A DNA stretch of 37,231 nucleotides. It comes from Myxococcota bacterium (GTDB taxonomy: Bacteria; Myxococcota_A; Polyangia; Polyangiales; Polyangiaceae). This document shows, piece after piece, positions 20,417 through 34,850 of this stretch. The stretch covers positions 1-37,231 of the forward strand of contig CAUJFL010000369.1 in assembly GCA_963169165.1 (NCBI GenBank), read 5' to 3'. The notes under the pieces were generated by a model. The model worked only from the letters and a program-made list of their open reading frames with translations, was not told the DNA's origin and did no database searches. Within the stretch, counting starts at the first letter, position 1, and the number at the start of each line of letters is the position of its first letter. Both the position numbers and the translations under genes were made by a program.

Positions 20417-20434
20417 TTTGAAACGCGTTTCAAA
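20417..20434. promoter_or_regulatory. 18-bp perfect palindrome, KstR-like operator
   Basis: TTTGAAACGCGTTTCAAA is a perfect inverted repeat. Its core 20419-20432 fits TnnAACnnGTTnnA, the KstR operator consensus, and also resembles GAAAC/GTTTC sites of other TetR lipid regulators such as PsrA. It lies in the divergent gap between the ferredoxin gene (start 20376) and the lipoprotein/FadL-like operon (start 20513), within a locally AT-richer stretch. The likely binder is the TetR protein encoded at 34866-35510. Confidence 0.72.
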
Positions 20435-20512
20435 ATTCCATGACGCGGCGCATTCTTTTCGTCGCCTTGACCTTTCGCAGTTCCATATTGCGCGATTTTC
20501 CCGATAACTTCT

Positions 20513-21748
20513 GTGGTCGTGCGGCGCTTCAGCTTGGGACGTTTCTTCATCGGAGGGGCCGCGCTCGCGTGGGGGCTAGGCGCGCTCGGGCTGCCGTCGT
20601 GCGCCGAGGACCAGGCGCTGCACGGCGCGTCGAAATGTGGCGACGGCGTCCGTCAGCCCGAAGAAGAGTGCGACGTCCTCGCGGGCGCGCTCGTCGACCC
20701 CGACGGCAACCCGCTGAAACCCAAGGACACCGGCTGCGTCCAGTGCAAGGAGGCCCCCGGCTGGCGCTGCCGCGACAACGTCTGCAAGGAGTTCTGTGGA
20801 GACGGCAAGATCGTCGGCGACGAAGAGTGTGATCCACCCAACGGAGACGACTGCAACACCTCGTGTCGGCTGTCGGTGGTCAAGAAGGATCCGTGCAGCC
20901 TCGCGGGGCACTGGATCCTGCGCCAGACCGACTTCTCCGTCGCCAACATCGGCACGAAGGGCGTGCAGACGTCGAGCAACTGGTTCTACTGGGAGGTCGC
21001 GCAGAAGGGAGACGAGTGGGAGGTCGTCAACAGCCTCTTCTGCGGCATCGTCGTCACCGGCAACGCCAACGTGAAGCTGAGCGACATCGGCACCCGAGGG
21101 CTCATGCACAAGAACCGCCAGGATCAGTCGAACCCGCGGGGCGGACGCAAGGGCGTGATGCGCGTGCAGGGGGACGGCTGCTACATGAAATCGTCACGCC
21201 ACTATTTCATCCGCGGCGGCAAGGATGACTTGTTGCCAGCGTCGTTCGCCGCCGAGCCCGACCTGGAGACGCTCGGCCCGCTGCCGGTCGCCAACGACGT
21301 CTACGATCCCTCGAAGGGCGGGATGCTCGAGCTCGCCGACGATCCAGACGGCGACGGCCTGCTCGGGGTCCCGTTCGAGGTGACGGGGCTCATCAACGGC
21401 ACGCGCAGCGCGGTGCAGCGCGACTGGAGCGCGTACGAGTCCGACGCGACGCACGCGATCGCGCAATTCTCCGCCGAGTTCGTCGCGCGCTCCGACTTCA
21501 AGAACCAGGAGAAGATCCTGCATTTGCAGTGTGGGTCTGGCGGTACGTGCCCGCTGCTCGAGGCGGGCTCGACGCCGTCGCTCGACCGGCCGGGGCGGGT
21601 GCTGTTCCGCTACCTGGGGGACAAGCTCGACTCTCCCGCGGTCCGCGCGCTGGTCGTCGAGTTTCCGGGCGGCGGCAGCGACGACGACGACTTCGAGACC
21701 TGCTCGCGCATCCGCGCCGCCCTGCCCCACGACCCTGCCTCCAAATGA
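20513..21748 (+). CDS. Cys-rich myxobacterial lipoprotein
   Basis: A 411-residue exported lipoprotein. The signal peptide ends in LGALGLPSC (Cys30). Two Cys-rich repeats of the myxobacterial disulfide type (DUF4215-like) follow: CGDGVRQPEEECD at about 42-54 and CGDGKIVGDEECDPPNGDDCNTSC at about 95-118 (listed here as landmark, first and last Cys 95 and 118). The C-terminal 290 residues look like a beta-rich extracytoplasmic domain (HWILRQTDFSV, NWFYWEVAQKGDEWEVV) that I cannot assign. Start GTG 20513 has no clear ribosome-binding site; GTG 20519 is equally possible. Its stop overlaps the start of the FadL-like barrel gene (ATGA), so the two probably act together at the outer membrane. The KstR-like palindrome lies about 80 bases upstream. 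Confidence 0.85.
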   Translation: MVVRRFSLGRFFIGGAALAWGLGALGLPSCAEDQALHGASKCGDGVRQPEEECDVLAGALVDPDGNPLKPKDTGCVQCKEAPGWRCRDNVCKEFCGDGKIVGDEECDPPNGDDCNTSCRLSVVKKDPCSLAGHWILRQTDFSVANIGTKGVQTSSNWFYWEVAQKGDEWEVVNSLFCGIVVTGNANVKLSDIGTRGLMHKNRQDQSNPRGGRKGVMRVQGDGCYMKSSRHYFIRGGKDDLLPASFAAEPDLETLGPLPVANDVYDPSKGGMLELADDPDGDGLLGVPFEVTGLINGTRSAVQRDWSAYESDATHAIAQFSAEFVARSDFKNQEKILHLQCGSGGTCPLLEAGSTPSLDRPGRVLFRYLGDKLDSPAVRALVVEFPGGGSDDDDFETCSRIRAALPHDPASK

Positions 21749-23238
21749 GCGCCCGCACCCACCTCCGCCTCACGCTGCTCGCGGCGACGCTCTGGTCCTC
21801 CCACGCGGCCGCGTCTCCGCTGTTCGAGCTGGCCGGCGGCACCTCGAGCGGCGGTGGGCTCGCGCCGCGGGTGACCGGCGCGGGCGCGCCCTCCACCTAC
21901 TTCAACCCGGCCCTGTTGCCGCACGCGAAGCAAGGCTTCGAGCTCGGCGTCCTCGTCCTCTCGGATCACATCGGCATCACCGTCGACGGTCGCGGGCGCG
22001 GCGACGTCCCTGACATCGTGGGCGATCGCGAGCTGGTCGATCAGAACGGCAGCCCAATCTCCAACCAGACGGTGCCGACGCGCTGGCTGGTGCGCGGGTG
22101 CCCCGCGGACGAGTGCAAGGGCGGCGGCTTCGGGGCGAGGCCTCGCCAGGCCGCGGGCTCGAGCGGCAACACGCGCGCCTACCAGATCATCGGGCTCGTC
22201 AACAAGATCGCGGGCGAGCGGGTGGTGCTGGGGTTCTACGCGCTCGTGCCGCTCGGCACGTTCACCACTGCCAACTCATTCTACAACGACGAGCGCGAGC
22301 AGTTCTTCTCCAACAGTCTTCACCCGGAGCTGTACTCGGACCGGATGACGGCGACCTCGGTGTCGTTCGGCGGAGCGTCCAAGCTGTCGCGCACGCTGTC
22401 GGTTGGCCTGAGCTTCACGCTCAACCTGCGAAACTCGGCCGCCGCGGGCACCTACGTGCGCGACGCCAACGACTACAACCAGCTCCTGCTCTCCACCCAG
22501 GTCGACGTCGACGCCTCCGTCTCGCCGCACCTCGGCGTCAACTGGCGGCCGTCCGACGTGCTGTCGCTGTCGGCGACGGTCCACTCGAAGCAGCAGCTCT
22601 CGATCGACACGACGTTCAGCGCGCTGTTGCCCTCGGGGCTCGAGTCGAAGACCACGCGTCGCGCGGTGCATGACTTCGTGCCCTGGACGTTCGGCGCGGG
22701 CGGCGAGCTCGAGCTGTCTCGCGGCGCGAACAGCCGCCTGACCGGCGTCGTGTCGGCGTCGTACGCCCTCTGGTCCTACTACCTCGACCGCCACGGAGAG
22801 TCGCCCGCGACCTACGGCTCGTACCTGAAATGGAAGAACACCGCGTCCGGCGCGGTCGGCGCGCGCTACGAGCGAGGGGCCACGCGCCTGCTCGCCGATC
22901 TCAGCTACGTGCCGACCCCCGTCCCTCCGCAGACCGGGCGCTCCAACTACGTCGACAACGACCGGGCCGGGGTCGCGCTCGGCGTCGACCACTCGTTCGA
23001 GTTCATCGGGCTCAGGCTCCGCGCCGGGGTGATGGGGCAGGTGCAGACGCTGTTCAAGCGAGACCAGAAGAAGGTCGACGGTCAGATCCAGGACGAGCTG
23101 CCCGACGACGCCCGCACGCGGACGGGCGCCCCGGTGGCGGGCCGCGCGGGGCTCCAGACCAACAACCCCGGCTGGCCCGGGTTCAGCAGCCAGGGCACAA
23201 TCATCGGCGGCGCGTTCACGCTCGGGATCCTTTACTGA
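21745..23238 (+). CDS. FadL/OmpP1-like outer-membrane transport barrel
   Basis: A 497-residue outer-membrane protein. A signal peptide (about 1-25, ending AAASP) is followed by a FadL-like opening: GGTSSGGGLAPRVTGAGAPSTYFNPALLPHAKQGFELGV, here with key parts TGAGAPSTYFNPALL corresponding to the N-terminal hatch of FadL. Long stretches of alternating beta strands with aromatic belts continue to the end (GGAFTLGILY). FadL-family barrels move hydrophobic compounds such as fatty acids and aromatic hydrocarbons across the outer membrane. The family call is moderate because overall similarity is inferred from pattern. It overlaps the preceding lipoprotein stop and the next lipoprotein start (TGATG), so three gene products are translationally coupled. 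Confidence 0.78.
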   Translation: MSARTHLRLTLLAATLWSSHAAASPLFELAGGTSSGGGLAPRVTGAGAPSTYFNPALLPHAKQGFELGVLVLSDHIGITVDGRGRGDVPDIVGDRELVDQNGSPISNQTVPTRWLVRGCPADECKGGGFGARPRQAAGSSGNTRAYQIIGLVNKIAGERVVLGFYALVPLGTFTTANSFYNDEREQFFSNSLHPELYSDRMTATSVSFGGASKLSRTLSVGLSFTLNLRNSAAAGTYVRDANDYNQLLLSTQVDVDASVSPHLGVNWRPSDVLSLSATVHSKQQLSIDTTFSALLPSGLESKTTRRAVHDFVPWTFGAGGELELSRGANSRLTGVVSASYALWSYYLDRHGESPATYGSYLKWKNTASGAVGARYERGATRLLADLSYVPTPVPPQTGRSNYVDNDRAGVALGVDHSFEFIGLRLRAGVMGQVQTLFKRDQKKVDGQIQDELPDDARTRTGAPVAGRAGLQTNNPGWPGFSSQGTIIGGAFTLGILY

Positions 23239-23978
23239 TGACAAGCACTCGTTGGCTCACGCTCACCTTGCTCGGCCTCTCCGCGTGCGAGCCCGAGCTC
23301 CCCGCGCCGACCAACGCGGCCCACAACGTGAGAGAGCCCGTCGAGGGCGGCGCCGCGGGGGCGGGCGGCGCGAGCGCCGGAGCGGCGGGGCTGAGCGGGG
23401 GCAAGGGCGGCGCCAGCGGGGGCGCAGGCGGCGCGAGCGGCGCGGCGAGCGCGGGCGCGCCGTCGGGCGGCGGCGGCGGCGCCAGGAGCTCGGTCGGCGA
23501 CGCGTGCAAGGTCGACGCCGATTGCAAGGGCTACGCGAAGGCGTCGTGCGTGACCTCGATCGCGCCGCTCAAGGGGAAGATCACGGATCCTACCCACCCG
23601 CAGGCCAGCAAATTCGAGAACGAGCTGGTCATGCCGTTTCCCAACGGATACTGCGCGACCACCATCGAGAACTCGTGCAAGAGCGACGCTGACTGCGGCG
23701 TCGGCGCCGGGTGCTTTCGTGGCCTCGACGGCGTCGACAAGGCGGTGCTCGCCGATCTCGACATGCAGAAGACCGCGGACGGCATGCACCCGTTCTTGCC
23801 GTTCAGCACGGTGGCGTTCGCGGACGTCGGCATCTGCCTCGAGCCTTGCAGCACCAACGCCGATTGCAGGCAGTCGGAGGGCTACACCTGCGCCGTGCCG
23901 ATGGGCACCCTCATCGGGGTCATCAACTCTTCGTACACCCGCACGTTCTGCGTCGGACCCTTCACCTTCATGTTGTGA
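23238..23978 (+). CDS. Cys-rich lipoprotein with Gly/Ala/Ser linker
   Basis: A 246-residue exported lipoprotein. The signal peptide MTSTRWLTLTLLGLSAC has its lipobox Cys at 17. A Gly/Ala/Ser linker spans about residues 33-83. The folded part has paired cysteines in phrases such as GDACKVDADCKGYAKASCV, NSCKSDADCGVGAGCF and EPCSTNADCRQSEGYTCAVP, which look like three related CxxDADC-type units forming disulfides outside the cytoplasm. Function is unknown. The start codon overlaps the stop of the FadL-like gene (TGATG), which suggests a surface partner of that barrel. Confidence 0.83.
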   Translation: MTSTRWLTLTLLGLSACEPELPAPTNAAHNVREPVEGGAAGAGGASAGAAGLSGGKGGASGGAGGASGAASAGAPSGGGGGARSSVGDACKVDADCKGYAKASCVTSIAPLKGKITDPTHPQASKFENELVMPFPNGYCATTIENSCKSDADCGVGAGCFRGLDGVDKAVLADLDMQKTADGMHPFLPFSTVAFADVGICLEPCSTNADCRQSEGYTCAVPMGTLIGVINSSYTRTFCVGPFTFML

Positions 23979-24005: not shown

Positions 24006-25541
24006 ATGACGAATCGCAGCCTCCGTACACCATCCGTCCGCACCGTCGCCGCGTGGCTCGTCTCGAGCGCCGCGCTCGTGGCCGCCTGCTCCAACACGGG
24101 TGAGACGCCGCCGAGCGACGACATGGACACCGGCGCGGCCGGCACACCAGGGGCCGCTGGGGCCTCTGGCAAGGGCGGAAAATCCGGCGTCGGCGGGGCC
24201 TCGAGCGGCGGCGCCTCGGCGGGCGGCAAGGCCTCCACCGCCGGCACGTCCAGCGGAGGCTCCCCCGCCGGGGGATCCTCGGCCGCGGGGTCACCCGCCG
24301 GGGGTTCGCCTGCTGGCGGCTCGTCCGGCGGGACGGCGGGCACCTGTCCTCCCTCCAAGTTCTTTGGCCTCCCCGAGTGCGCGGCGCCGGGGAAGCACCC
24401 GTGCCTGACGTGCGCTTGCAACGATCTCTCGTCCACGCTGTGCTCTGCCAAGTATGGCGCGTGCAAGGGAGACGAGGGGTGCGCGAAGACCGTCGAGTGC
24501 GTGCTCAGCGGCTGCCCCGTCTCCGCGTGCGAGCAGTTCGTCGGCAACAGCCTTCAGAAGTTGCTCGATCTCGAGCCTTGCCTGCAGACCACGTGCAAGG
24601 CCGAGTGCGCCGATCTCTTCGGCGGGAGCGGCGGCGCGGGCGGCGCGGGCGGCGGGAGCACGTCGGGCGGCGCGGCGGGGTCCACCTCGGGCGGCAGCGG
24701 TGGCGCCGCGACGGTCTGCGCACCCAACAGCTTTCGCTGCACCGGCGCCAAGCTCGAGAAGTGTGACGCCGCGGGCTCGGGCTTCTCGCTCTCCCAGGAT
24801 TGCGGGGCGATGGTGTGCGACGCATCCGCGGGCAAGTGTACGGCGGGCGGCTGCGGCGACGGGTGGACGATCACGTACGCCATCACCGGCGGCTTCACGA
24901 TCACGGAGACCACCCTCGGCGCGGGAGACAAGAGCAACCTGCCGATCGGCACGGGCGAGCTGCAGATCCGCTTCGACGACGTCGGCGGCGCCCCCGGCGG
25001 GACGGCGCGGCTCCTGTCGTACAAGATGCCGATGAAGTTCGAGGTGACGACCTCGGGGCTCACGGTCGCGACCGACGTGGTCACCTCCGCGGCCTACGCC
25101 GACTGCGGCGTGGCGAAGGGCGCCTTCGCGAGCGGCGTTCTGAAGTGGGATTCGTGCAAGTACGGCCCCACGTGGAACATCGACAAGAACTCGTGGAAGC
25201 CCGCGCCCGACGCGGCCACCGGCCCAGGCTGTGTCAACGGGTACTCGAGCGTCGGCAACGTGAAGTGTACCGACAAGTCGCTGTTCGCGAAATGCAGCGA
25301 CGGCAACCTGAAGGACGGCGACAACCCGCAGAATTCCACGTGGAATCAGCCGCTCAATTCGTTCGAGTTCTCCTCCGATCTGAAGAGCGTGTCGATGGTC
25401 AAGCTGGACCAGCCCTCGCCCGGCGGCGGAGGTGACAAGGGCGTGGAGACCCCCAACACTTCGCCGAGCCGGACCTGGTTCACCATCAAGGGCAGCGAGA
25501 CGGGCCGCGTGAAGGCCGCGAAGCCCTGCAGCTGCAACTGA
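24006..25541 (+). CDS. Large Gly-rich, Cys-rich surface lipoprotein
   Basis: A 511-residue lipoprotein with a signal peptide ending LVAAC (Cys28). A 70-residue Gly/Ser/Ala linker (about 43-112) contains repeated SPAGG units. A Cys-rich helical domain follows (about 114-203: CPPSKFFGLPEC, LTCACNDLSSTLC, CLQTTCKAEC), reminiscent of Cys-rich modules in other myxobacterial lipoproteins. A second Gly/Ser linker lies at about 206-235, then CAPNSFRCTGAKLEKCD and a beta-rich C-terminal domain (about 284-511) ending CSCN. The start has a GAGGAG ribosome-binding site about 10 bases upstream. It lies 27 bases after the preceding lipoprotein gene and 12 bases before the acyltransferase gene. No function is assigned. 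Confidence 0.85.
   Translation: MTNRSLRTPSVRTVAAWLVSSAALVAACSNTGETPPSDDMDTGAAGTPGAAGASGKGGKSGVGGASSGGASAGGKASTAGTSSGGSPAGGSSAAGSPAGGSPAGGSSGGTAGTCPPSKFFGLPECAAPGKHPCLTCACNDLSSTLCSAKYGACKGDEGCAKTVECVLSGCPVSACEQFVGNSLQKLLDLEPCLQTTCKAECADLFGGSGGAGGAGGGSTSGGAAGSTSGGSGGAATVCAPNSFRCTGAKLEKCDAAGSGFSLSQDCGAMVCDASAGKCTAGGCGDGWTITYAITGGFTITETTLGAGDKSNLPIGTGELQIRFDDVGGAPGGTARLLSYKMPMKFEVTTSGLTVATDVVTSAAYADCGVAKGAFASGVLKWDSCKYGPTWNIDKNSWKPAPDAATGPGCVNGYSSVGNVKCTDKSLFAKCSDGNLKDGDNPQNSTWNQPLNSFEFSSDLKSVSMVKLDQPSPGGGGDKGVETPNTSPSRTWFTIKGSETGRVKAAKPCSCN
24132..24341 (+). repeat. Gly/Ser/Ala-rich low-complexity coding repeat
   Basis: This stretch codes for the first linker of the large lipoprotein, including several SPAGG(S) units around residues 86-107. 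It is a coding low-complexity tract, probably an extended, flexible stalk on the cell surface, and a place where length variation between strains is likely. Confidence 0.7.
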
Positions 25542-25553
25542 GCGCGGCGAGCG

Positions 25554-26942
25554 ATGGAACGGCTCTCTGGTCTCGACGCGAGCTTCCTCTACCTCGAGAC
25601 GGCGCGCATGCACATGCACGTCTCGATCGTCGCCGTGCTCGATCCCACCGAGACGCCCGGGGGCTACTCCTTCGACAGGATCCAGGAGCTGATCGCCGAG
25701 CGCATCCACCTGTTGCCGCCGTTCCGGCGGAGGCTGGTGCGGGTGCCGTTCGACCTTCACCACCCCGTCTGGGTCGAGGACCCCGAGTTCGACATCATCC
25801 ACCACGTCCGGCGGGTCTCGGCGCCCGCGCCAGGCGGGCGGCGTGAGCTCGCGGCGCTCGTCGGCCGCATCACGTCGAGCCCGCTCGATCGTGGCCGGCC
25901 GCTGTGGGAAGTGTGGGTCATCGAGGGCTTGAAGCACGGGAGGATCGCGCTCGTCACCAAGGTCCACCACGCGGCCGTCGACGGCGTGACCGGCGCCAGC
26001 CTGCTGGTTCACCTGTTCGATCTGACGCGCGACGCGGGACCCCGCCCCAAGCCCCCGCCCGCGCCGCCCGATCCGATCCCGACCGATCGCGAGCTGGTGC
26101 AGCACGCGCTCCTCTCACGCGCGCGGCAACCAGTGGGCATGTGGAAGCTGGCCGCCAGGACGGTGAAGGCCGCGCGCGACGTCGTGCGCGTCAGGCGCGA
26201 TCCCGAGACGCCGGTCGGCGCGACCCCGCTGACGGCCCCGCGCACGCGCTTCAACGGCTCGCTCGGCGCCCAGCGCGCGGTCGCCTTCTCGCGCGTGCCG
26301 CTGCCGGCCATCAAGGACGTCAAGAAGCGCGCGGGCACCACCGTCAACGACGTCGTGCTGGCGGTCTGCGCGGGGGCCCTCCGCAAGTATCTCGACTCGC
26401 ACGGCGAGCTGCCGGCTGATCCGCTCGTCGCGACCTGCCCCATCTCGGTGCACGGCGCCACGACCGGGCCGTCCAGCAACAAGGTCTCCGCCATGTTCAC
26501 GTCGCTCGCCACGAACATCGACGATCCCAGAGCGCGGCTGCTGGCGATCTCGGCGACCACGCGCGGCGCGAAGGAGGAGCACAACGCCGTCGGCGCCGAC
26601 ATGCTGCAGAACTGGGCGGAGTTCGCCGCGCCGACGACGATCAGCCTCGCGGCGCGCTTCTACAGCGCGATGAACCTCGCGGATCGTCACCGCCCCATTC
26701 ATAATCTTGTCATTTCCAACGTTCCCGGGCCTCCGTTCCCGCTCTACCTCGCGGGCGCCGATCTGGTCGCGATCTACCCGATGGGCCCCGTGATGGAGGG
26801 CGCGGGCCTCAACGTCACCGTGCTCAGCTACCGCGACGCCGTCGACTTCGGGTTCAACGCGAGCCAGGCGATGGCGCCCGATCTGTGGGCGCTGGCGGAG
26901 GCGGTGCCGCCCGCTTTCGACGAGCTGCGCCGGGCGCTGTGA
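25554..26942 (+). CDS. Wax ester synthase / diacylglycerol acyltransferase (WS/DGAT)
   Basis: A 462-residue WS/DGAT family enzyme that joins acyl-CoA to a fatty alcohol or diacylglycerol, making storage wax ester or triacylglycerol. The condensation-type active site is KVHHAAVDGVTG (HHxxxDG). Other family marks are the N-terminal ERLSGLDASFLYLET, PLDRGRPLWEVWVIEGL (PLW motif), GTTVNDVVLAVCAGALRKYL (NDVVLA), and HNLVISNVPGPPFPLYLAGA near the C-terminus. No signal or membrane anchor; it probably sits at the membrane or lipid-body surface. It follows the lipoprotein genes by 12 bases and ends convergent to the acyl-CoA ligase gene. Its presence next to an acyl-CoA catabolism locus suggests coupling of lipid uptake to storage. 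Confidence 0.95.
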   Translation: MERLSGLDASFLYLETARMHMHVSIVAVLDPTETPGGYSFDRIQELIAERIHLLPPFRRRLVRVPFDLHHPVWVEDPEFDIIHHVRRVSAPAPGGRRELAALVGRITSSPLDRGRPLWEVWVIEGLKHGRIALVTKVHHAAVDGVTGASLLVHLFDLTRDAGPRPKPPPAPPDPIPTDRELVQHALLSRARQPVGMWKLAARTVKAARDVVRVRRDPETPVGATPLTAPRTRFNGSLGAQRAVAFSRVPLPAIKDVKKRAGTTVNDVVLAVCAGALRKYLDSHGELPADPLVATCPISVHGATTGPSSNKVSAMFTSLATNIDDPRARLLAISATTRGAKEEHNAVGADMLQNWAEFAAPTTISLAARFYSAMNLADRHRPIHNLVISNVPGPPFPLYLAGADLVAIYPMGPVMEGAGLNVTVLSYRDAVDFGFNASQAMAPDLWALAEAVPPAFDELRRAL

Positions 26943-26997: not shown

Positions 26998-27020
26998 CCC
27001 GCGCGATCAGATCGCGCGGG
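26998..27020. terminator. GC-rich hairpin between convergent genes
   Basis: CCCGCGCGATC, one A, then GATCGCGCGGG form an almost perfect inverted repeat, folding as a 9-10 bp stem with a 3-5 base loop. It lies between the convergent WS/DGAT and acyl-CoA ligase genes, overlapping the last codons of the ligase. There is no T-run on either side, so intrinsic termination is uncertain. Confidence 0.4.
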
Positions 27021-28554
27021 CTCTCCCCTGCCAGTAGGGATCGCGCAGCTTGCGCTTGTAGAGCTTGCCGTTGGGATCTCGCGGCATCTCGGTCGTGAAG
27101 TCGATGCTCTTCGGCACCTTGAACCTCGCGATCCTGTCGGCCAGGAACGCCGTCAGCTCGGCGGCCACCTCGGCGCTCGGCGCGACGCCCTCGGCCAGCT
27201 CGACGACGGCCTTGATCTCCTCGCCCCAGTCATCATTTGGCACGCCGAAGACGGCCGCGTCGAGCACCCTGGGGTGCGCGAGGATCGCGGCCTCGATCTC
27301 GGCCGGGTAGATGTTGACGCCGCCCGAGATGATCATGTCACTCTTGCGATCGACCAGGAACAGGAACCCCTCTCCGTCGAGGTAGCCGGCGTCGCCCACG
27401 GTGAAGAAGTCGCCCGACCACGACGAGTCGGTCTTCTGCTTGTCCTTGTGGTACTCGAATTTGTGCGCGCCCATCGACATGTAGACGGTGCCCACCTCGC
27501 CCGGAGCGCAGACGCTGCCGTCGTCTGCGCGGATCTCGAGCCGCGAGATCGGCCACGCCTTGCCGACCGTGCCAGGGTGCGCGCGCCAGTCGCCGGGGCT
27601 CGCGAGCGTTCCGCCGCCCTCGGACGCCGCGTAGTACTCCCAGATCGAGTCACCCCACCAATCCAACATGGCTTGTTTGACGTCGACCGGGCAGGGCGCG
27701 GCGCTGTGGATCGCGTGTCGAAACGACGAGACGTCGTGGCGCGCGCGCTCGGCGGGCGACAGCGACAGCAGCCGACGAAACTGCGTCGGCACCATGTGGG
27801 TCGCGGTGACCTTGTGCTTCGCCACCAGCTCCAGCATCCCCTCGGGGGTCCACTTGTCCATCAACACGACCGTGTGGCCGTTGTGCAGGTGGTTGGTGCA
27901 GAAGTTGAGGACGGCCGTGTGGTACAGCGGCGAGACGACCAGGTGGACGCCGTCGTGCGGGACGATGCCAAACAAACTCAAGAACTGAGCCTGCATCGTC
28001 GCGACGACCTCGGGCGCGACCTGCGCGAGCGGGCGGCGAACGCCCTTGGGTTTGCCCGTCGTGCCGGACGTGTAGGTCATCGGCGCGCCGGCCTGACGGT
28101 CGTCGGGCGCCGCCTCGGGTTGACCGTCGAGCAGCGCCTCGAGCGGGGCGAAGCCTGGGCAGGCTCCGGTCGCGAACCTGCGGTCGGTCGCCAGCCCCGC
28201 CTCGTCGGCCGCCTTGCCGACCGTGTCCGCGACGGGCGGCGACGCGATCACCAGCTTCGCCTCCGAGTCGGCGAGGATGTACGCGATCTCGGGCGCGGCG
28301 AGGTTGACGTTGATCGGCGTGTAGTAGACGCCGATCTGCGCGGTCGCCATGAAGAGCTCGACCACCGCGGCCTCGTTCTTCAGCACGACCGCGACGCTGT
28401 CGCCCCGCCCGACGCCGCGCGCGCGCAGGCCGTGAGCCAGGCGGTTGACCCGCGCGAGCAGGGCGCCGGCGGTCTGCGCCCGACCCTTCGCGTCGATGAG
28501 CGCCACGTGATCGGGGCGCTCGGCGGCGACCCTCCAGAAGCCGAGGTGGGACAT
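27007..28554 (-). CDS. Acyl-CoA synthetase (FadD-like, adenylate-forming)
   Basis: A 515-residue ANL-superfamily ligase that activates a carboxylic acid to its CoA thioester through an acyl-adenylate. The P-loop is MTYTSGTTGKPKGVRR; further core motifs are WEYYAASEGGGT, VGDAGYLDGEGFLFLVDRKSDMIISGGVNIYPAEIE (motifs VGDAGY and DRKSDMI with the hinge Asp/Lys) and PRDPNGKLYKRKLRDPYW with the catalytic C-terminal Lys. The YAASEGGG form and the DPYW ending recall actinobacterial FadD enzymes such as those acting on branched or steroid side chains; that substrate guess is inference. The ATG follows a GAGGAGCG ribosome-binding site. It is the last gene of the SCP2-MlaE-SDR-FadD series. Confidence 0.93.
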   Translation of the reverse strand: MSHLGFWRVAAERPDHVALIDAKGRAQTAGALLARVNRLAHGLRARGVGRGDSVAVVLKNEAAVVELFMATAQIGVYYTPINVNLAAPEIAYILADSEAKLVIASPPVADTVGKAADEAGLATDRRFATGACPGFAPLEALLDGQPEAAPDDRQAGAPMTYTSGTTGKPKGVRRPLAQVAPEVVATMQAQFLSLFGIVPHDGVHLVVSPLYHTAVLNFCTNHLHNGHTVVLMDKWTPEGMLELVAKHKVTATHMVPTQFRRLLSLSPAERARHDVSSFRHAIHSAAPCPVDVKQAMLDWWGDSIWEYYAASEGGGTLASPGDWRAHPGTVGKAWPISRLEIRADDGSVCAPGEVGTVYMSMGAHKFEYHKDKQKTDSSWSGDFFTVGDAGYLDGEGFLFLVDRKSDMIISGGVNIYPAEIEAAILAHPRVLDAAVFGVPNDDWGEEIKAVVELAEGVAPSAEVAAELTAFLADRIARFKVPKSIDFTTEMPRDPNGKLYKRKLRDPYWQGRARAI

Positions 28555-28566
28555 CGCTCGCTCCTC

Positions 28567-29319
28567 TCAGACCGACATCGCCATGTCGACGACGAGCGCC
28601 GTGCCGCTGATGTAGCTCGCGTCCGGGGACGCGAGGAACGCGATGGCGCCCGCGACCTCGTCGGGTGACGCGTAGTTGTCGACGATCGGCGCGATGCGCA
28701 CGAGCTGCCGCTGGCTGCCGCCCGGGGGCAGCGAGAACTGCCCGAGCATCGGCGTCTCGACGCCGCCGGGGCACACGCAGTTGATGCGGACGCCCTTGCG
28801 CGCGTACTCGACCGCGAGCGCCTTCGTCATCTGCACCACGCCGCCCTTCGACGCGCAGTACGCCGCGCTGTACGGGTGCGATTTCAGCCCCGCGATCGAC
28901 GCGGTGAGGATGATCGCGCCCTTCGTCGCGATCACGTGCGGCAAGGCGGCCTGCGCCATCAAGAACGAGCCGGTGAGGTTGATGGCGATCATCCGGCTCC
29001 ACTGCTCGAAGGTCACGTCCAGCGTGCGGTGAAAGCCGCCGACGCCTGCGACGTTGGCGAGCGCGTCGAGCTTGCCGAAGCTGGCGACGGCGAGATCGAT
29101 CGCCGCCCTCGCGGACGCGGGATCGGAGACGTCGCAGCGCGAGCTCGCGGCGTCGCCGCCCGCGTCGGTGATCTGCTTCACCGTCTCGGCCGCGCCGTCG
29201 ACGTTGACGTCGGTGACGAGCACCCTCGCGCCCTCGCTCGCGAACCTCTTCGCCGTCGCGCGCCCGATGCCAGAGCCCGCGCCGGTGACGACGACCGATT
29301 TGCCTTCGAATCGCTTCAT
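28567..29319 (-). CDS. Short-chain dehydrogenase/reductase (SDR)
   Basis: A 250-residue classical SDR. The nucleotide site is TGAGSGIGRATA, with VTDVNVDGA suggesting NAD preference because an Asp ends strand 2. The NVAG motif, the catalytic Ser in LTASIAG, and Tyr/Lys in YSAAYCASKGG are present, as is the substrate loop NCVCPGGVETPM. It probably oxidises or reduces a hydroxyl/keto group on a lipid or steroid-like acyl-CoA. The start at 29319 has GAGG 7 bases upstream and begins at the conserved MKRFEGKSVVVTG. It lies 71 bases after the permease gene and 12 bases before the acyl-CoA ligase gene, in a probable four-gene operon. Confidence 0.93.
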   Translation of the reverse strand: MKRFEGKSVVVTGAGSGIGRATAKRFASEGARVLVTDVNVDGAAETVKQITDAGGDAASSRCDVSDPASARAAIDLAVASFGKLDALANVAGVGGFHRTLDVTFEQWSRMIAINLTGSFLMAQAALPHVIATKGAIILTASIAGLKSHPYSAAYCASKGGVVQMTKALAVEYARKGVRINCVCPGGVETPMLGQFSLPPGGSQRQLVRIAPIVDNYASPDEVAGAIAFLASPDASYISGTALVVDMAMSV

Positions 29320-29390
29320 GGAAAACCTCGATGGTGTCCGCGCGATGACGCGCGGAGGTGCTGAGAAGTTGGGGGAGCGGGGCGCGCGGC

Positions 29391-30224
29391 TCAGGCCGGG
29401 AAGATGATGACGCCGGCGCCCGAGATGAAGAAGTTCAGCATGATGACCGCGAGCGAGCAGCTGACGACCGCGCGCGTGGTCGCCCAGCCGACGCCCTCGC
29501 TGCCGCCGTACGTCGACAGCCCGCAGTAGCCCGCGACCACGGGGATGGCCGTCGAGTAGGCGAGGCACTTGGTCGCGCCGACCGCGATGTCGCCCCAGTC
29601 GACCAGCGCCGCGTTGAGGAACGTGCGCGGCGCGACGTCGAAGTACGTCGCCGCGACGAGCGTGCCGGAGGCGGTGGCCATCGCGCCGCCGCAGATGATC
29701 ACCGCCGTCGACATGACGATGCTCGCGAGCATCCGCGGCTTGATCAGGTAGTCGATCGGATCGGCGCCGCACATCCTGAGCGCGTCGACCTGCTCGGTCA
29801 CCATCATCGCGCCGATCTCGGCGGCGATGCCGGCGCCGACGCGCGTGGCGATCATCAGCGACGCGATCGACGCCGCGAGGTCGCGCACGAGCAGCTCGAG
29901 GTACATCGCGCCGAGCATCGTGAGATCGGGCACCACGCGGCTCGCCTGGATGCCGGCCTGGAACACGATGATGCCGCCGAAGAACCCCATCACGATGCAG
30001 ATGAAGAACAGCGATTTGTTGCCGATCTCGTACATGTAATGGGCGAGCGCGCCGGGCTCCTTCCGCCCGCGCACGACGTAGTAGAGCGTGCGGACGAACA
30101 CGCCGTAGATGCCGGCGAAATCGGCCCACACCTCGAGGCCAGCCTGACCGATCGCGCCGAGAGAAGCGGTGACGAAGCCCGCCTCGGGCTCGGCTCGGTC
30201 GATCGTGCTGGCGCTGTCGCTCAT
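29391..30224 (-). CDS. MlaE/YrbE-family ABC transporter permease, without adjacent partners
   Basis: A 277-residue permease of the MlaE/YrbE (Mce-associated) family with about five membrane segments. The family signature ATRVGAGIAAEIGAMMVTEQVDALRMCGADP is clear (key part GAGIAAEIGAMMVTEQVDAL), followed by DYLIKPRMLASIV. In lipid importers this subunit works with an MlaF ATPase and an MCE-domain (MlaD/Mce) protein. Neither is encoded here. The start overlaps the SCP2-like stop by 4 nt (ATGA), so the permease is co-translated with a lipid-carrier protein. In Mycobacterium the equivalent YrbE4A/B serve the Mce4 sterol importer. A lipid or sterol substrate is inferred from family and context. Confidence 0.92.
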   Translation of the reverse strand: MSDSASTIDRAEPEAGFVTASLGAIGQAGLEVWADFAGIYGVFVRTLYYVVRGRKEPGALAHYMYEIGNKSLFFICIVMGFFGGIIVFQAGIQASRVVPDLTMLGAMYLELLVRDLAASIASLMIATRVGAGIAAEIGAMMVTEQVDALRMCGADPIDYLIKPRMLASIVMSTAVIICGGAMATASGTLVAATYFDVAPRTFLNAALVDWGDIAVGATKCLAYSTAIPVVAGYCGLSTYGGSEGVGWATTRAVVSCSLAVIMLNFFISGAGVIIFPA

Positions 30225-30565
30225 TTTCCTGAGTTGGGCGGCAAGAAGGCTTGCATCTTCTGCGCGAGCATCACGTTACCCGAAACCTTGAGCAGGCCGC
30301 GCATGAACGCCATCGTGCCCCCGAGATCGCCGTTGACCATCTTGACGTAGTTCGGCGCGTCCATCTTGATGGTCGTGGTCGGCGACGCCGTCGTGCCCTC
30401 GTTGACCTTCATCGTGCCGTCGTCGAACTCGACGAACCAGCTGCCGCCGCCCTCGCCGGTCAGCTCGAATTGGAACGTCGCCTTCACGCCCTTCGCGGCG
30501 CTCGGGATGAAGCGCTCGTTCAACGTCTCGAAGTAGTGCTGCACGCTGTTGACCCGGATTCCCAT
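30221..30565 (-). CDS. SCP2-like sterol/lipid carrier domain protein
   Basis: A 114-residue single-domain SCP2 protein. The pattern is typical: N-terminal helices (VQHYFETLNERFIPSAAKG), then beta strands ATFQFELTGEGGGSWFVEFDDGTMKVNEG, TTTIKMDAPNYVKMVNGDLGGTMAFMRGLLKVSGNVMLAQKM, where the LLKVSGNVMLA segment is the standard SCP2 C-terminal signature. Such domains bind sterols, fatty acids or acyl-CoAs. The ATG at 30565 has AGGAG 9 bases upstream; the longer frame to 30640 would run through the operator and is rejected. It heads the minus-strand operon 49 bases from a KstR-like site, and is coupled to the permease gene. Confidence 0.9.
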   Translation of the reverse strand: MGIRVNSVQHYFETLNERFIPSAAKGVKATFQFELTGEGGGSWFVEFDDGTMKVNEGTTASPTTTIKMDAPNYVKMVNGDLGGTMAFMRGLLKVSGNVMLAQKMQAFLPPNSGK

Positions 30566-30613
30566 CGCTATTTCTCCTGTTCGGTGGCTGCTCGCCGACC
30601 CTGTGGCCCCAGA

Positions 30614-30627
30614 TAGAACATGTTTCA
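30614..30627. promoter_or_regulatory. KstR-like operator, site near the SCP2-like gene
   Basis: TAGAACATGTTTCA fits TnnAACnnGTTnnA at every specified base. It lies 49 bases upstream of the SCP2-like start, nearly the same distance as the palindrome before the ferredoxin gene (43 bases). The identical 14-mer recurs 45 bases away. Confidence 0.72.
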
Positions 30628-30658
30628 CTCCGACGGACAAGCCGGTTGACCGACGAAG

Positions 30659-30672
30659 TAGAACATGTTTCA
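30659..30672. promoter_or_regulatory. KstR-like operator overlapping the hydratase start
   Basis: A second copy of TAGAACATGTTTCA, identical to the site at 30614-30627 and 45 bases from it centre to centre (about four helical turns). It contains the ATG at 30665, so either that start is leaderless or the true start is GTG 30683 or GTG 30719. The pair could let two repressor dimers control both divergent promoters. Confidence 0.72.
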
Positions 30673-32707
30673 GTCACGCCCCGTGAGCGACGCCGAACGA
30701 GCCGAGCCCGAGCCCCTGGTGCTCGTCGAGCGCGAGGGCGCCGTCGCCGTCGTGACGATGAACCGGCCGCGCTACCGCAACGCGCAGAACATGGCCATGA
30801 CGTACGCGCTCGACGACGCCTTCGCGGCGCTCGTCGCCGACGACGCCGTCAAGGTGATCCTGCTCGCGGGGGCGGGCGATCACTTCTCGGCCGGGCACGA
30901 CATCGGCACGCCCGAGCGCGACATCCACAGGCCGTTCGACGCGCGCGCCACGGTCAAGTGGGAGCACGCCGAGCGCCAGGGCGCCGAGGGCATGTTCGTG
31001 CGCGAGGCCGAGGCCTACCTGGGGATGTGCCGGCGCTGGCGCGAGCTGCCGAAGCCCACTGTCGCGGTCGTGCAGGGCGCGTGCGTCGCCGGCGGGCTGA
31101 TGCTCGCGTGGTGCTGCGATCTGGTCGTCGCGGCCGACGACGCGTTCTTCGCGGACCCGGTCGTCAAGATGGGCATCCCCGGCGTCGAGTACTTCGCGCA
31201 CCCCTATGTGATGGGGCCGCGCTTCGCGAAGGAGCTATTGTTCACCGGCGAGCGCGTCGGGGCCGACCGCGCGCTCGCGATGGGGATGATCAACCGCGTC
31301 GTGCCCCGCGCGAGCCTGCGCGAAGAGGCGATGAAGCTCGCGGGCAAGATCGCCGAGATGCCCCGCTTCGGCTTGATGCTCACGAAGCGCGCCGTGAACC
31401 AGGCCGAGGACCGCATGGGCCTGCGCGACACGATGGACGCGACGTTCGGGCTGCACCACCTCGCGCACGCGCACAACGCGCTCTCGTCGCCCGACCACCT
31501 GCAGGGGCAAGACGCGAAGAGCATGGCGAAGGGGCTCAAGTTAGCGATGGACCTCGAGCTGTCGCCGAGCGAGCGCGCCTTCCGCGACGACGCGCGGCGG
31601 TGGCTCGCCGACAACGTGCCCGACGGCCGCCTCTCGGGCGACACGCCCGAGGGCTTTCGCGCGCTCCGCGCCTGGGAGAGGCTCCTGTTCGACGCGCGCT
31701 GGGCGGTCGTCTCGTGGCCTGAACAGTACGGCGGGCGCGGCGCGTCGGCGGTCGAGTGGCTGCTGTTCGAAGAGGAGTACTACCGCGCGGGCGCGCCGCA
31801 GCGCATCGCGCAGAACGGCATCTTCCTGCTCGCGCCGACGCTGTTCGAGTTCGGCTCCGACGAGCAGAAGGCGCGCGTGCTGCCGCGGATGGCGGCCGGG
31901 CTCGACGTGTGGGCGCAGGGCTGGAGCGAGCCGGGCGCGGGGAGCGATCTGGCGGGCGTCGCGAGCCGCGGCGCGCGCGACGACGCGCGAGGAGGCTGGC
32001 GCCTCACCGGCCAGAAGACCTGGTGCACGCGCGGCGCCTTCTGCGACTACCTGTTCGGATTGTTTCGTACGGATCCCAAGGCCGAGCGCCACAAGGGGCT
32101 CACGTACCTGATGGTGCCGCTCGACGCGCCGGGCGTCACGGTGCGGCCGGTCGGGCGGCTCGACGGCGAGCCAGGGTTCGCCGACGTCTTCCTCGACGAC
32201 GTGTTCGTCCCCGACGCCGACGTGATCGGCGAGCCCCACGAGGGCTGGACGGTCGCGATGACCACGGCGTCGTCCGAGCGTGGGCTCACGCTGCGGAGCC
32301 CCGGTCGCTACGTCGCCGCCGCCGCGCGCCTCGTCGAGCTCGTCCGCCGGCATCCCGGGGCGCACCCGTCGCTCCGCGACGCGGTCGCGCGTGTCCACAT
32401 GGAGGCCGAGGCCAACCACCTCTACACGCTGCAGACCGTGACGCGCGTGCAGAGCGGCGAGGCGCTCGGCGCGAGCGCGAGCATCAACAAGATCCTCTGG
32501 TCCGAGCTCGACGTCGCCTTGCACGACGCGGCGCTCGCGCTGCTCGGCGATCGCGCCGAGCTCATCGCCGGCGCGGGCCTCGCCGAGGACGACGGCGCGT
32601 GGATGAAGGGCTTTCAGTTCGCGCTCGCGGGCCCCATCTACGCCGGCACCAACGAGATCCAGCGCAACGTGATCGCCGAGCGACTGCTGGGGTTGCCGCG
32701 CAAATGA
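30665..32707 (+). CDS. Enoyl-CoA hydratase fused to acyl-CoA dehydrogenase
   Basis: One 680-residue frame. Residues about 18-292 form an enoyl-CoA hydratase/isomerase (crotonase): VVTMNRPRYRNAQN, oxyanion loop GDHFSAGHDIG, and GACVAGGLMLAWCCDLVVA. Residues 295-680 form an acyl-CoA dehydrogenase: N-terminal MDLELSPSERAFRDDARRWL, WSEPGAGSDLAGV (FAD/substrate loop), GQKTWCTRGAFCDY, and YAGTNEIQRNVIAERLLGLPR. The dehydrogenase part is of the FadE26/28-like subunit type that pairs with a second subunit, encoded next. The junction reads AAG TTA GCG ATG; an out-of-frame TAG (31542-31544) lies just before ATG 31547, so a single extra base could have joined two genes. The exact start is uncertain (30665, 30683 or 30719). 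Confidence 0.88.
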   Translation: MFQSRPVSDAERAEPEPLVLVEREGAVAVVTMNRPRYRNAQNMAMTYALDDAFAALVADDAVKVILLAGAGDHFSAGHDIGTPERDIHRPFDARATVKWEHAERQGAEGMFVREAEAYLGMCRRWRELPKPTVAVVQGACVAGGLMLAWCCDLVVAADDAFFADPVVKMGIPGVEYFAHPYVMGPRFAKELLFTGERVGADRALAMGMINRVVPRASLREEAMKLAGKIAEMPRFGLMLTKRAVNQAEDRMGLRDTMDATFGLHHLAHAHNALSSPDHLQGQDAKSMAKGLKLAMDLELSPSERAFRDDARRWLADNVPDGRLSGDTPEGFRALRAWERLLFDARWAVVSWPEQYGGRGASAVEWLLFEEEYYRAGAPQRIAQNGIFLLAPTLFEFGSDEQKARVLPRMAAGLDVWAQGWSEPGAGSDLAGVASRGARDDARGGWRLTGQKTWCTRGAFCDYLFGLFRTDPKAERHKGLTYLMVPLDAPGVTVRPVGRLDGEPGFADVFLDDVFVPDADVIGEPHEGWTVAMTTASSERGLTLRSPGRYVAAAARLVELVRRHPGAHPSLRDAVARVHMEAEANHLYTLQTVTRVQSGEALGASASINKILWSELDVALHDAALALLGDRAELIAGAGLAEDDGAWMKGFQFALAGPIYAGTNEIQRNVIAERLLGLPRK

Positions 32708-33696
32708 GGTTCGCGCTCTCCGACGAGCAGGTGCAGGCCGCGGCGTCGCTGCGCGGGCTGCTCGCGCGCGATTTCCCCGCGACGGCGCTGCGCGCGCGCT
32801 GGGACGGCGCGCCCGACGACGGCGCGCTCTGGTCGAGCCTCTGCGAGATGGGCCTGCCGTCGATGCTCGTGCCCGAGGCGCACGGCGGCCTCGGCGGCGA
32901 CGAGCTCGATCTCGTGTCGTTGCTCGAGGAGTGCGGGCGCGCCGCGGTCCCCGGTCCGATCGTCGAGACGTGCTGGGTCGCGCCGCGCTCGTTGTCCGCC
33001 GCGCGGCTCGGGGCGCTCGCGGCCGGCTCGCTGAGGGTCGCGTGCGGAGACGGCGAGGCGCCGCTGGTCGCCGACGCAGGCGAGGCCGACGTGCTCCTGC
33101 TGTGCCGCGGCGACGAGGCGTTCGCGCTCGACCGCGCCAGGGTAGAGCTGTCGGCGCGTCAGCCGTCGGTCGACGGCGCGCGCGCTCTCTTCGAGGTGCG
33201 CTGGGACCCGCGTGACGGCGAGGCGATCTGCTCGGCGGACGAGCTGCGCGCGCGGATGGCGTCGGGCCTCGCGGCCGTCTTGCTCGGGCTGTCGCGGCGG
33301 ATGCTCGACATGACGTCCGAGTATGTGCAGGTGCGCCGGCAGTTCGGCGTGCCGGTGGGCTCGTTCCAGGCGGTGAAGCACCCGCTCGCGACCGCGCTCG
33401 TGCGGCTGTCGGTCGCGCGCCCGGTGCTCCTGCGCGCGGCGTACTCGCTCGCGCGGCGCGATCCCGCCCGCGCCCGCCACGCGTCGATGGCGAAGGCGCT
33501 CGCGGCCGAGTCGGCGCTGCTCTCCGCCCGCGTCGCGCTGCAGGCGCACGGCGCGATCGGCTACTCGTTCGAGCACGATCTCCACCTGTTCATGAAGCGA
33601 GCTTGGGCCCTCTCGGCCGCGTTCGGCGGCCCGCTCGAGCACCGCGCGAAGATCGCGGCGCACCTGTTCGATCCACCCCCCACGGAGAACCCCTGA
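32704..33696 (+). CDS. Acyl-CoA dehydrogenase, second subunit (FadE27/29-like)
   Basis: A 330-residue acyl-CoA dehydrogenase-like protein, shorter than the usual 380. It keeps MRFALSDEQVQAAASLRGLL, the N-terminal helical domain, a compact middle domain, and the FAD-contacting RRQFGVPVGSFQAVKHPLA, then HGAIGYSFEHDLHLFMKRA at the C-terminus. It lacks the TNEIQRN motif that its neighbour carries. This split of features matches the alpha2-beta2 dehydrogenases of mycobacterial steroid side-chain degradation (FadE26-27, FadE28-29), where each active site is built from both subunits. The start overlaps the upstream stop (ATGA), in keeping with a stoichiometric complex. A steroid substrate is not proven. 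Confidence 0.9.
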   Translation: MRFALSDEQVQAAASLRGLLARDFPATALRARWDGAPDDGALWSSLCEMGLPSMLVPEAHGGLGGDELDLVSLLEECGRAAVPGPIVETCWVAPRSLSAARLGALAAGSLRVACGDGEAPLVADAGEADVLLLCRGDEAFALDRARVELSARQPSVDGARALFEVRWDPRDGEAICSADELRARMASGLAAVLLGLSRRMLDMTSEYVQVRRQFGVPVGSFQAVKHPLATALVRLSVARPVLLRAAYSLARRDPARARHASMAKALAAESALLSARVALQAHGAIGYSFEHDLHLFMKRAWALSAAFGGPLEHRAKIAAHLFDPPPTENP

Positions 33697-33698
33697 CC

Positions 33699-34850
33699 AT
33701 GGCCCAGGCCTACATCATCGACGCCGTCCGTACGCCGGTCGGCAAGCGCAACGGCTCGCTCGCGAAGATCCACCCGATCGATCTCGGCGCGCACGTCCTC
33801 TCTGCGCTGATGGAGCGCACCAAGGTCGATCCCGCCGCCGTCGAGGACGTCGTGATGGGCTGCGTCGACACGATCGGCCCGCAGGCGGGCGACATCGCGC
33901 GCAACTGCTGGCTCGCGGCGGGGCTGCCCGACGAGGTGCCGGGCGTCACGGTCGATCGCCAGTGCGGCTCGTCGCAGCAGGCGCTGCACTTCGCGGCGCA
34001 AGGTGTGCTGAGCGGCACGCAAGAGCTCGTCGTCGCGGCCGGCGTGCAGAACATGAGCATGGTGCCGATCGGCGCCGCGATGATCACCGGCAAGGAGTTC
34101 AACCTGCCCGAGCGCCTCTCCGGCTCGACCGGCTGGGTCAAGCGCTACGGCGACGGCCCCGTGTCGCAGTTTCGGTCGGCCGAGATGATCGCCGAGAAGT
34201 GGAACCTCTCGCGCGAGGACATGGAGCGCTTCGCCTTCGACAGCCACCAGCGCGCGGCACGCGCGGGCGACGAGGGGCGTTTCGCGCGGGAGATCGTGCC
34301 GATCGCGGGGCTGGCGGCCGACGAGGGTCCGCGCCGCGACACGACCCTCGAGAAGATGGCGACGCTGAAGACCATCGAGCCCGGCGGCAGGCTCACGGCC
34401 GCGCTCTCCAGCCAGATCTCCGACGGCGCGTCCGCCGTGCTGCTCGCGTCCGAGGCGGCGGTGAAGACCCATGGCCTGAAGCCGCGCGCGCGGGTGCACC
34501 ACCTGTCGGTCCGCGGGGCCGATCCCATCTGGATGCTGACCGCGCCGATCCCCGCGACGGCGTACGCGCTGAAGAAGGCCGGCATGACCATCGACCAGAT
34601 AGATCTCGTCGAGATCAACGAGGCCTTCGCGTCGGTCGTGATGGCCTGGGAGAAGGAGGCCGGCATCTCGCACGACAAGGTCAACGTCAACGGCGGCGCG
34701 ATCTCGCTCGGTCACCCGCTCGGCGCGACCGGCCTGCGCCTGATGTCGACCCTGCTCTGCGAGCTCGAGCGCAGCGGCGGACGCTACGGCCTGCAGACGA
34801 TGTGCGAGGGCGGCGGTCAGGCCAACGTGACGATCATCGAGCGACTGTGA
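33699..34850 (+). CDS. Acetyl-CoA acetyltransferase (thiolase, FadA5/FadA6-like)
   Basis: A 383-residue thiolase that cleaves 3-ketoacyl-CoA with CoA in the last step of beta-oxidation. The nucleophile is Cys89 in TVDRQCGSSQQALHFA. The NEAFASV segment, the His in GHPLGATGLRLM and the second Cys in TMCEGGGQANVTII complete the active site. The start ATG 33699 follows the dehydrogenase stop by 2 bases and has GGAG about 11 bases upstream; the longer frame starting at 33603 is within the previous gene. Length and the CEGGGQAN form fit the degradative thiolases found with FadE pairs in actinobacteria. Confidence 0.96.
   Translation: MAQAYIIDAVRTPVGKRNGSLAKIHPIDLGAHVLSALMERTKVDPAAVEDVVMGCVDTIGPQAGDIARNCWLAAGLPDEVPGVTVDRQCGSSQQALHFAAQGVLSGTQELVVAAGVQNMSMVPIGAAMITGKEFNLPERLSGSTGWVKRYGDGPVSQFRSAEMIAEKWNLSREDMERFAFDSHQRAARAGDEGRFAREIVPIAGLAADEGPRRDTTLEKMATLKTIEPGGRLTAALSSQISDGASAVLLASEAAVKTHGLKPRARVHHLSVRGADPIWMLTAPIPATAYALKKAGMTIDQIDLVEINEAFASVVMAWEKEAGISHDKVNVNGGAISLGHPLGATGLRLMSTLLCELERSGGRYGLQTMCEGGGQANVTIIERL

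Follow-up and report, generated by a model that had tools for sequence, protein, structure and literature searches.

The closest described counterpart of the locus analyzed here is the KstR regulon of Mycobacterium tuberculosis and Mycobacterium smegmatis, in which the TetR-family repressor KstR (Rv3574) acts at operators that follow the rule TNNAACNNGTTNNA, are often located between divergent genes, and have enzymes of steroid ring and side-chain degradation among their targets. In M. tuberculosis, the available text of PMC1995591 places two such operators at Rv3503c/Rv3504 and at Rv3520c/Rv3521, the first of which was bound by KstR in vitro. For Gram-negative bacteria, the passage of steroids across the outer membrane has been called elusive, and a FadL-like protein has been proposed to take up sterols in the anaerobic degrader Sterolibacterium denitrificans; no regulator comparable to the one described below appears in the available text of that review (PMC6678751).

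The window (the whole 37,231-nucleotide stretch of DNA analyzed here, from a Myxococcota assembly of 5.8 Mb that is 84.6% complete) carries the perfect 18-bp palindrome TTTGAAACGCGTTTCAAA at 20417-20434, which an earlier note on this DNA had pointed out as a KstR-like site; its core fits a rule identical to the one published for KstR (PMC1995591). Very probably, this palindrome is the operator of a KstR-related TetR regulator encoded in the same window, which would repress both flanking divergent units, be released by a steroid-CoA, and coordinate the uptake, electron transfer, and steroid genes. The palindrome is the sole match to its sequence in the window, even when up to three mismatches are allowed, and occurs once in the genome. 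Rarity of the palindrome was considered as an argument and dropped: a first-order model predicts ∼1.2 perfect palindromes of at least 18 bp per window, and one was observed. Palindromy alone therefore proves nothing, and the operator core has to carry the argument. The same expectation is what could speak for a chance inverted repeat with no regulatory role, a reading that we regard as extremely improbable given the behavior of the core. The rule has exactly three matches in the window (at 20419, 30614, and 30659), compared with 0.04 expected from shuffling. A position weight matrix (PWM) trained on 41 sites from three genomes, with the source genome left out, assigns the 20417 site 22.5 bits, a score expected 0.0005 times per window and 0.08 times per genome; furthermore, the core is kept in place even though 27% of the intergenic columns differ within the genus, and upstream sites are found in other genera. 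By the same matrix, the 20417 site has the lowest score among the three sites of the window; the other two reach 29.0 bits and the next best place 1.3.

The site is located 40 bp upstream of the ferredoxin ATG on the minus strand and 78 bp upstream of the lipoprotein GTG at 20513 on the plus strand, and therefore within a shared divergent intergenic region (Table 1). Gene order, the Pfam and PDB matches, and the FadL fold discussed below agree with the earlier assignment of these neighbors as a P450-type ferredoxin and a lipoprotein/FadL-like barrel operon. A scan of the 20417 site for consensus sigma-70 promoters and terminators found none, such consensus sequences being uninformative for the host lineage. 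A stretch of ∼28 bases immediately to the right of the operator (window 20435-20465, AATTCCATGACGCGGCGCATTCTTTTCG) is identical in a genome of the same genus and may represent the promoter from which the lipoprotein-barrel operon is transcribed.

Table 1. Predicted operators and genes of the window, with the basis of each assignment
Feature	Position	Strand	Basis or remark
Ferredoxin, single-cluster, 69 aa	20167-20376	-	Pfam Fer4_15, Fer4_13, and Fer4_19 above cut-offs
KstR-like operator (predicted)	20417-20434	.	14-bp core 20419-20432, TGAAACGCGTTTCA; arms extend it to a perfect 18-bp palindrome
Lipoprotein, partner gene of the barrel	20513-21748	+	Lipobox LPSC, DUF4215 repeat; start GTG 20513 or 20519
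FadL/TodX-fold outer-membrane barrel (predicted)	21745-23238	+	NPA motif at residues 54-56; fold matches
Third gene of the run	23199-23978	+	Translation; lipoprotein signal MTSTRWLTLTLLGLSACEP in frame, true start inside the stretch
Cysteine-rich, Gly/Ala-rich lipoprotein, fourth gene	24006-25541	+	Translation
Wax ester synthase/acyltransferase (WS/DGAT), last of the co-directed run	25554-26942	+	TIGR02946, 513.9 bits (cut-off 309.95)
Divergent unit (SCP2, MlaE permease, SDR, acyl-CoA ligase)	27007-30640	-	Pfam/NCBIfam
Acyl-CoA ligase	27007-28554	-	Pfam/NCBIfam
SDR (open reading frame)	28567-30129	-	Pfam/NCBIfam
MlaE permease	29391-30224	-	Pfam/NCBIfam
SCP2 (frame)	30221-30640	-	Pfam/NCBIfam
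Operator core, distal of pair (predicted)	30614-30627	.	TAGAACATGTTTCA; rule match, 29.0 bits
Operator core, proximal of pair (predicted)	30659-30672	.	TAGAACATGTTTCA; rule match, 29.0 bits
Enoyl-CoA hydratase fused to acyl-CoA dehydrogenase	30665-32707	+	Profile matches
Second acyl-CoA dehydrogenase, IpdE2-like	32707-33696	+	Profile matches
Thiolase	33603-34850	+	Profile matches
TetR-family regulator, KstR-related; proposed operator binder	34866-35510	+	PDB, NCBIfam
Rv3520c-family F420-dependent oxidoreductase, behind TetR	35507-36538	+	TIGR03559, 374.5 bits (cut-off 335)

The other two sites of the window share one 14-mer sequence and are spaced 45 bp apart within a single divergent intergenic region, 10.2 kb from the 20417 site. 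They precede the beta-oxidation run that contains the TetR gene, so that a predicted operator pair lies upstream of the regulator's own operon, and behind the TetR gene this run has a member of the Rv3520c family, whose namesake has a KstR site in M. tuberculosis. A similar pair, 46 bp apart, precedes Rieske/Hsa genes elsewhere in the genome (L079, positions 5034 and 5080). Two features of the reading frames around the window pair are worth recording: the hydratase and dehydrogenase domains occupy a single 680-aa open frame, an apparent fusion, and the SDR frame on the opposite strand overlaps the MlaE frame by more than 700 bases, its true start probably lying well inside the frame.

The TetR protein has M. 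tuberculosis KstR structures as its best PDB relatives (1.8e-18), followed by an unnamed TetR (8.7e-13) and Mce3R (1.7e-10). Its best NCBIfam family is likewise KstR, with 105.5 bits (105.2 in the genome search), ahead of MftR (36.7) and the FadR family (30.4), and it is the sole match at E ≤ 1e-10 when the source genome is searched with the KstR model. The score falls below the curated cut-off of 280 bits of the KstR equivalog NF033703. The protein is labeled here as KstR-related, and not as KstR, because KstR is its nearest relative but the equivalog cut-off is missed. A TetR above that cut-off (331 bits) was found in another genome, G037 (C303:961-1515, L034), with an operator-class site alongside; its short contig (3.5 kb, from an assembly that is 77% complete) may stem from actinobacterial contamination or from a transfer. 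In a tree of TetR proteins, which has long branches and only four outgroup rows and from which 13 of 37 sequences are absent, the G037 protein groups tentatively with the myxobacterial TetRs (96/91), itself on a long branch.

The operators of the window belong to a much larger set. Searched with a tighter pattern, TNRAACRYGTTYNA, and with a reversed control, the source genome contains 19 sites and one control match; 18 of the 19 are built solely of TGAAAC and TAGAAC halves. The assignment of the palindrome to one motif class with the two sites about 10 kb away holds, and members of this class are far more frequent in the genome than in the control. The 16 sites other than those of the window are distributed over 15 contig stretches, where enzyme identities come from selected genes and the genes at the site itself were read in stretches other than L083, L086, and L091; the site in L088, which falls inside an ORF, is probably a chance match. 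Three Rieske oxygenases at these sites are KshA-like by eye. The Rieske oxygenase of L077 is nearest to KshA structures (PDB 4qdc, 2.9e-52), and that of L079 has a weak match to the 4beta-methylsterol monooxygenase model only. Another site adjoins a CYP125/142-like P450 (C85; best PDB match, 2.9e-96). A KstD-like dehydrogenase reaches 617 bits, below its cut-off of 788, and one operon combines HsaC-, HsaD-, HsaE-, and HsaG-like genes, of which only the HsaG-like stretch exceeds a cut-off, one set for a subfamily model. Further genes at the sites encode an HsaA-like protein, an ECH-CoA-transferase protein, and an aldehyde dehydrogenase. As judged from these sequence matches, the sites mark an actinobacterial-type steroid catabolic regulon that comprises, besides the CYP125/142-like P450, an almost complete set of ring A/B genes. 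The earlier note had proposed that one regulator joins outer-membrane uptake, electron transfer, and beta-oxidation; comparative genomics supports the joining, with the amendment that the regulon concerns steroid catabolism rather than beta-oxidation in general.

On the right side of the palindrome, the lipoprotein is kept as the partner of the barrel in seven other genomes, at 24 to 78% identity; its predicted structure (mean pLDDT, 53.9) is too poor for a fold search. The window barrel itself yields no match at 0.1 against Pfam, including Toluene_X; an orthologue in L156 clears the Toluene_X cut-off (32.6 versus 29.7 bits). With the predicted model of the window barrel (pLDDT, 74.7; pTM, 0.75), the top 22 Foldseek rows all belong to the FadL/TodX family (best E, 1.2e-16), and VIA-align superimposes it on FadL with a Z score of 27.8 (rmsd, 5.8; 326 aligned). 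In alignments, N54-P55-A56 are invariant or nearly so. According to the predicted model, the barrel thus has the FadL/TodX fold despite the null result with Pfam. It shares this fold and the NPA motif with the described FadL/TodX channels and differs from them in its placement, in a run with dedicated lipoproteins under a steroid-type predicted operator. The FadL-like protein of S. denitrificans, which belongs to another phylum, offers a parallel in that it, too, has been proposed to carry sterols through a Gram-negative outer membrane. Behind the barrel, the product of the third gene has a weak WAP-like match only, and that of the fourth matches no Pfam family. The spacing of the genes suggests that the WS/DGAT gene belongs to the lipoprotein-barrel operon as well.

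The ferredoxin on the left side matches a single-cluster Fer4 profile, and its cluster pattern, CEGNAIC...CP (CxxxxxC...CP), lacks one of the usual four cysteines. Among the PDB entries that it matches are a ferredoxin-CYP143 entry and a chain labeled cytochrome P450 51, and it is 80% identical to the same-genus copy. By sequence, it is a putative redox partner of the CYP125/142-like P450 of the regulon. The operator could, alternatively, be real but one-sided, most likely serving the lipoprotein-barrel operon, with the ferredoxin a passenger that shares the intergenic region. We consider this possible, if doubtful: the divergent partner does vary among relatives, being an Rv3520c-like oxidoreductase in G073 and another lipoprotein-like ORF (by eye) in L149 and L160, but relatives of the ferredoxin recur in operator-led gene runs of three other lineages, within a set of fetched loci that is biased toward this system. 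Specifically, a ferredoxin relative follows TetR and a KshA-like ORF in G035 (L020), an aldehyde-dehydrogenase-like ORF in G073 (L154), and thiolase- and FadJ-like ORFs in L170, all of these leading ORFs being named by eye. The arrangement also has a parallel in M. tuberculosis, where Rv3503c is presumably the ferredoxin FdxD. The site at Rv3503c/Rv3504, which bound KstR in vitro according to the available text of PMC1995591, likewise argues against a passenger role and for the two-sided operator.

The site is conserved in place. In G001, a genome of the same genus, it is found between the same two genes and reads AGTGAAACACGTTCCAAA; this site, TGAAACACGTTCCA, is an imperfect palindrome with the AC spacer of the KstR-like set. 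Both substitutions inside the 14-mer are at degenerate positions of the rule, whose eight fixed positions are all unchanged. The palindrome has lost part of its outer arms, and the whole intergenic alignment of the two species is 73% identical. Conservation of the palindrome in related genomes, which the earlier note had named as a check, is therefore a split result, with the operator core kept in place and the perfect palindrome lost in the same-genus copy. G073 and G035 likewise have sites in the matching position ahead of the lipoprotein-barrel pair, and five further metagenome-assembled genomes have a site upstream of the barrel.

Across genera, the presence of the site follows the presence of the regulator. 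The comparison used 41 of 79 barrel loci, from 40 genomes, and PWM scoring covered 45 of the 79. A site no more than 2 kb upstream of the barrel occurs in 8 of the 10 genomes with a TetR at E < 1e-50 and in none of the 30 others (Fisher test, 5.9e-7); with a looser threshold of E ≤ 1e-15 (14 genomes), the counts are 8/14 versus 0/26 (3.9e-5), and both P values serve as guides only because the genomes are related and independence is overstated. Three of the eight positive loci are on the same contigs as those of G001, G035, and G073 mentioned above. Four of the six misses at the looser threshold rest on short or partial evidence, with less than 1.7 kb upstream in L143, L163, and L170 and a partial TetR in L162. 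L141 was counted as a miss with a site 3.5 kb upstream that heads an ACAD-ACAD-lipoprotein-barrel run (named by eye), and no site was found in the 16.6-kb barrel locus L140 of G098, a genome with the TetR. The retention of a site ahead of the lipoprotein-barrel operon among other TetR-bearing genera is well borne out by the contrast at the stricter threshold, and in four loci (L149, L156, L160, and L166) the TetR gene itself neighbors the barrel operon.

Whole-genome counts point in the same direction. Among 97 relatives, the median is 19 sites in the 7 genomes with a TetR at E < 1e-50 versus 2 in the remaining 90. Against this, site numbers are low in six genomes of the wider TetR clade (G045, 2; G067, 1; G074, 5; G077, 1; G081, 1; G095, 3). 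G035 has 66 operator-class sites versus 1 control, the most among the 97 genomes. Four genomes of another family of the order (G063, G072, G082, and G092) have 12 to 18 operator-class sites each and 0 to 2 controls, with a TetR that is only 40 to 44% identical; regulator and operator seem to have stayed matched there over a long divergence.

The same survey bears on what the regulon is for. HsaC is present in 10 of the 97 relatives, and 8 of these 10 also carry the TetR at E < 1e-30. Conversely, G006, G035, and G051 combine the TetR and many sites with no HsaC match at E ≤ 1e-30; therefore, the regulon is not one of ring degradation everywhere, and its content varies. These three genomes, together with the description of mycobacterial KstR itself as controlling a wider lipid regulon (PMC1995591, available text), lend some weight to the view that the regulon serves other lipids, with the steroid enzymes as part of a wider set. 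For the source genome, we find this view rather unlikely, with its sites adjoining the near-complete ring A/B set and the CYP125/142-like P450.

Many matches occur in some genomes with no close TetR relative (G050, 22; G015, 11; G080, 11; and G059, 11, with a control count of 13), and those of G050, G015, and G080 are mostly of other half-site classes. In G050, of the same family as the source genome, the 22 sites consist of TCAAAC/TAGAAC halves, mostly with a GC spacer, and an HsaC-like gene is present; this genome possibly has a second steroid-type regulon under another repressor. Regulators of the PsrA/FadR fatty-acid type are TetR proteins with similar inverted repeats before beta-oxidation genes, and we take PsrA-type half-sites to resemble the 20417 operator. 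A repressor of the PsrA or another fatty-acid type could accordingly bind the 20417 site, its KstR-like resemblance being incidental. The site is the only one in the source genome with a GC spacer, and the operator class of G050, with no close TetR relative, implies that other regulators with similar operators may exist in the family. We nevertheless judge binding by another repressor to be quite unlikely: the source genome has no second GC-spacer site, the same-genus site has the AC spacer of the KstR-like set, and across genomes the presence of a site here goes with that of the KstR-like TetR, whose gene is beside the operon in four of them. As to the fatty-acid type in particular, the window TetR is nearer to KstR than to the FadR family, and the other sites flank steroid-type enzymes.

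With the KstR-related TetR as the preferred binder, the locus would work as follows. A TetR dimer at the 20417 site would block both divergent promoters and thereby silence the ferredoxin on the left and the lipoprotein-FadL-barrel run on the right. When sterol is encountered, the repressor would be freed here and at the other genomic sites by a steroid-CoA intermediate, in the manner of mycobacterial KstR. The genes for steroid passage across the outer membrane, for electron delivery to the P450, and for side-chain and ring degradation would then be switched on together. Sterol uptake would be the task of the barrel and its lipoproteins, and the side-chain P450 would be the partner of the ferredoxin. 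The sequence analysis establishes the site and its motif class, the genomic enrichment, the conserved placement, the association with the TetR gene, and the steroid-type enzymes at the other sites; we infer binding, repression, the ligand, and sterol transport by the barrel.

At the time of the earlier RefSeq analysis of steroid degradation, Myxococcota were classed within Proteobacteria. According to the survey PMC5790920, that analysis detected the 9,10-seco steroid pathway in Actinobacteria and Proteobacteria only; the words "deltaproteobacteria" and "myxo" are absent from both PMC5790920 and PMC4810484. None of the open-access papers searched describes a KstR-type regulon from Myxococcota, which is weak evidence of novelty given that most subscription papers fall outside this scope. 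Relative to the mycobacterial regulon, the one described here has a Gram-negative host, a regulator at ∼105 bits against the 280-bit equivalog cut-off, TGAAAC beside TAGAAC half-sites with a mostly AT spacer, and a lipoprotein-FadL-barrel module among its targets. On balance, we favor the view that uncultured Polyangia-type Myxococcota have a full KstR-type steroid regulon that follows the mycobacterial operator rule and is rewired for a Gram-negative cell, with a lipoprotein-FadL-lipoprotein sterol importer and a P450 ferredoxin on one bidirectional operator. The operator of the mycobacterial cholesterol regulator would thereby be placed in a distant phylum, which suggests either a long-standing match between regulator and operator or their joint transfer. 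A KstR-type regulon in Myxococcota with a FadL-fold barrel and its dedicated lipoproteins among the targets would provide a concrete candidate for an outer-membrane steroid importer.
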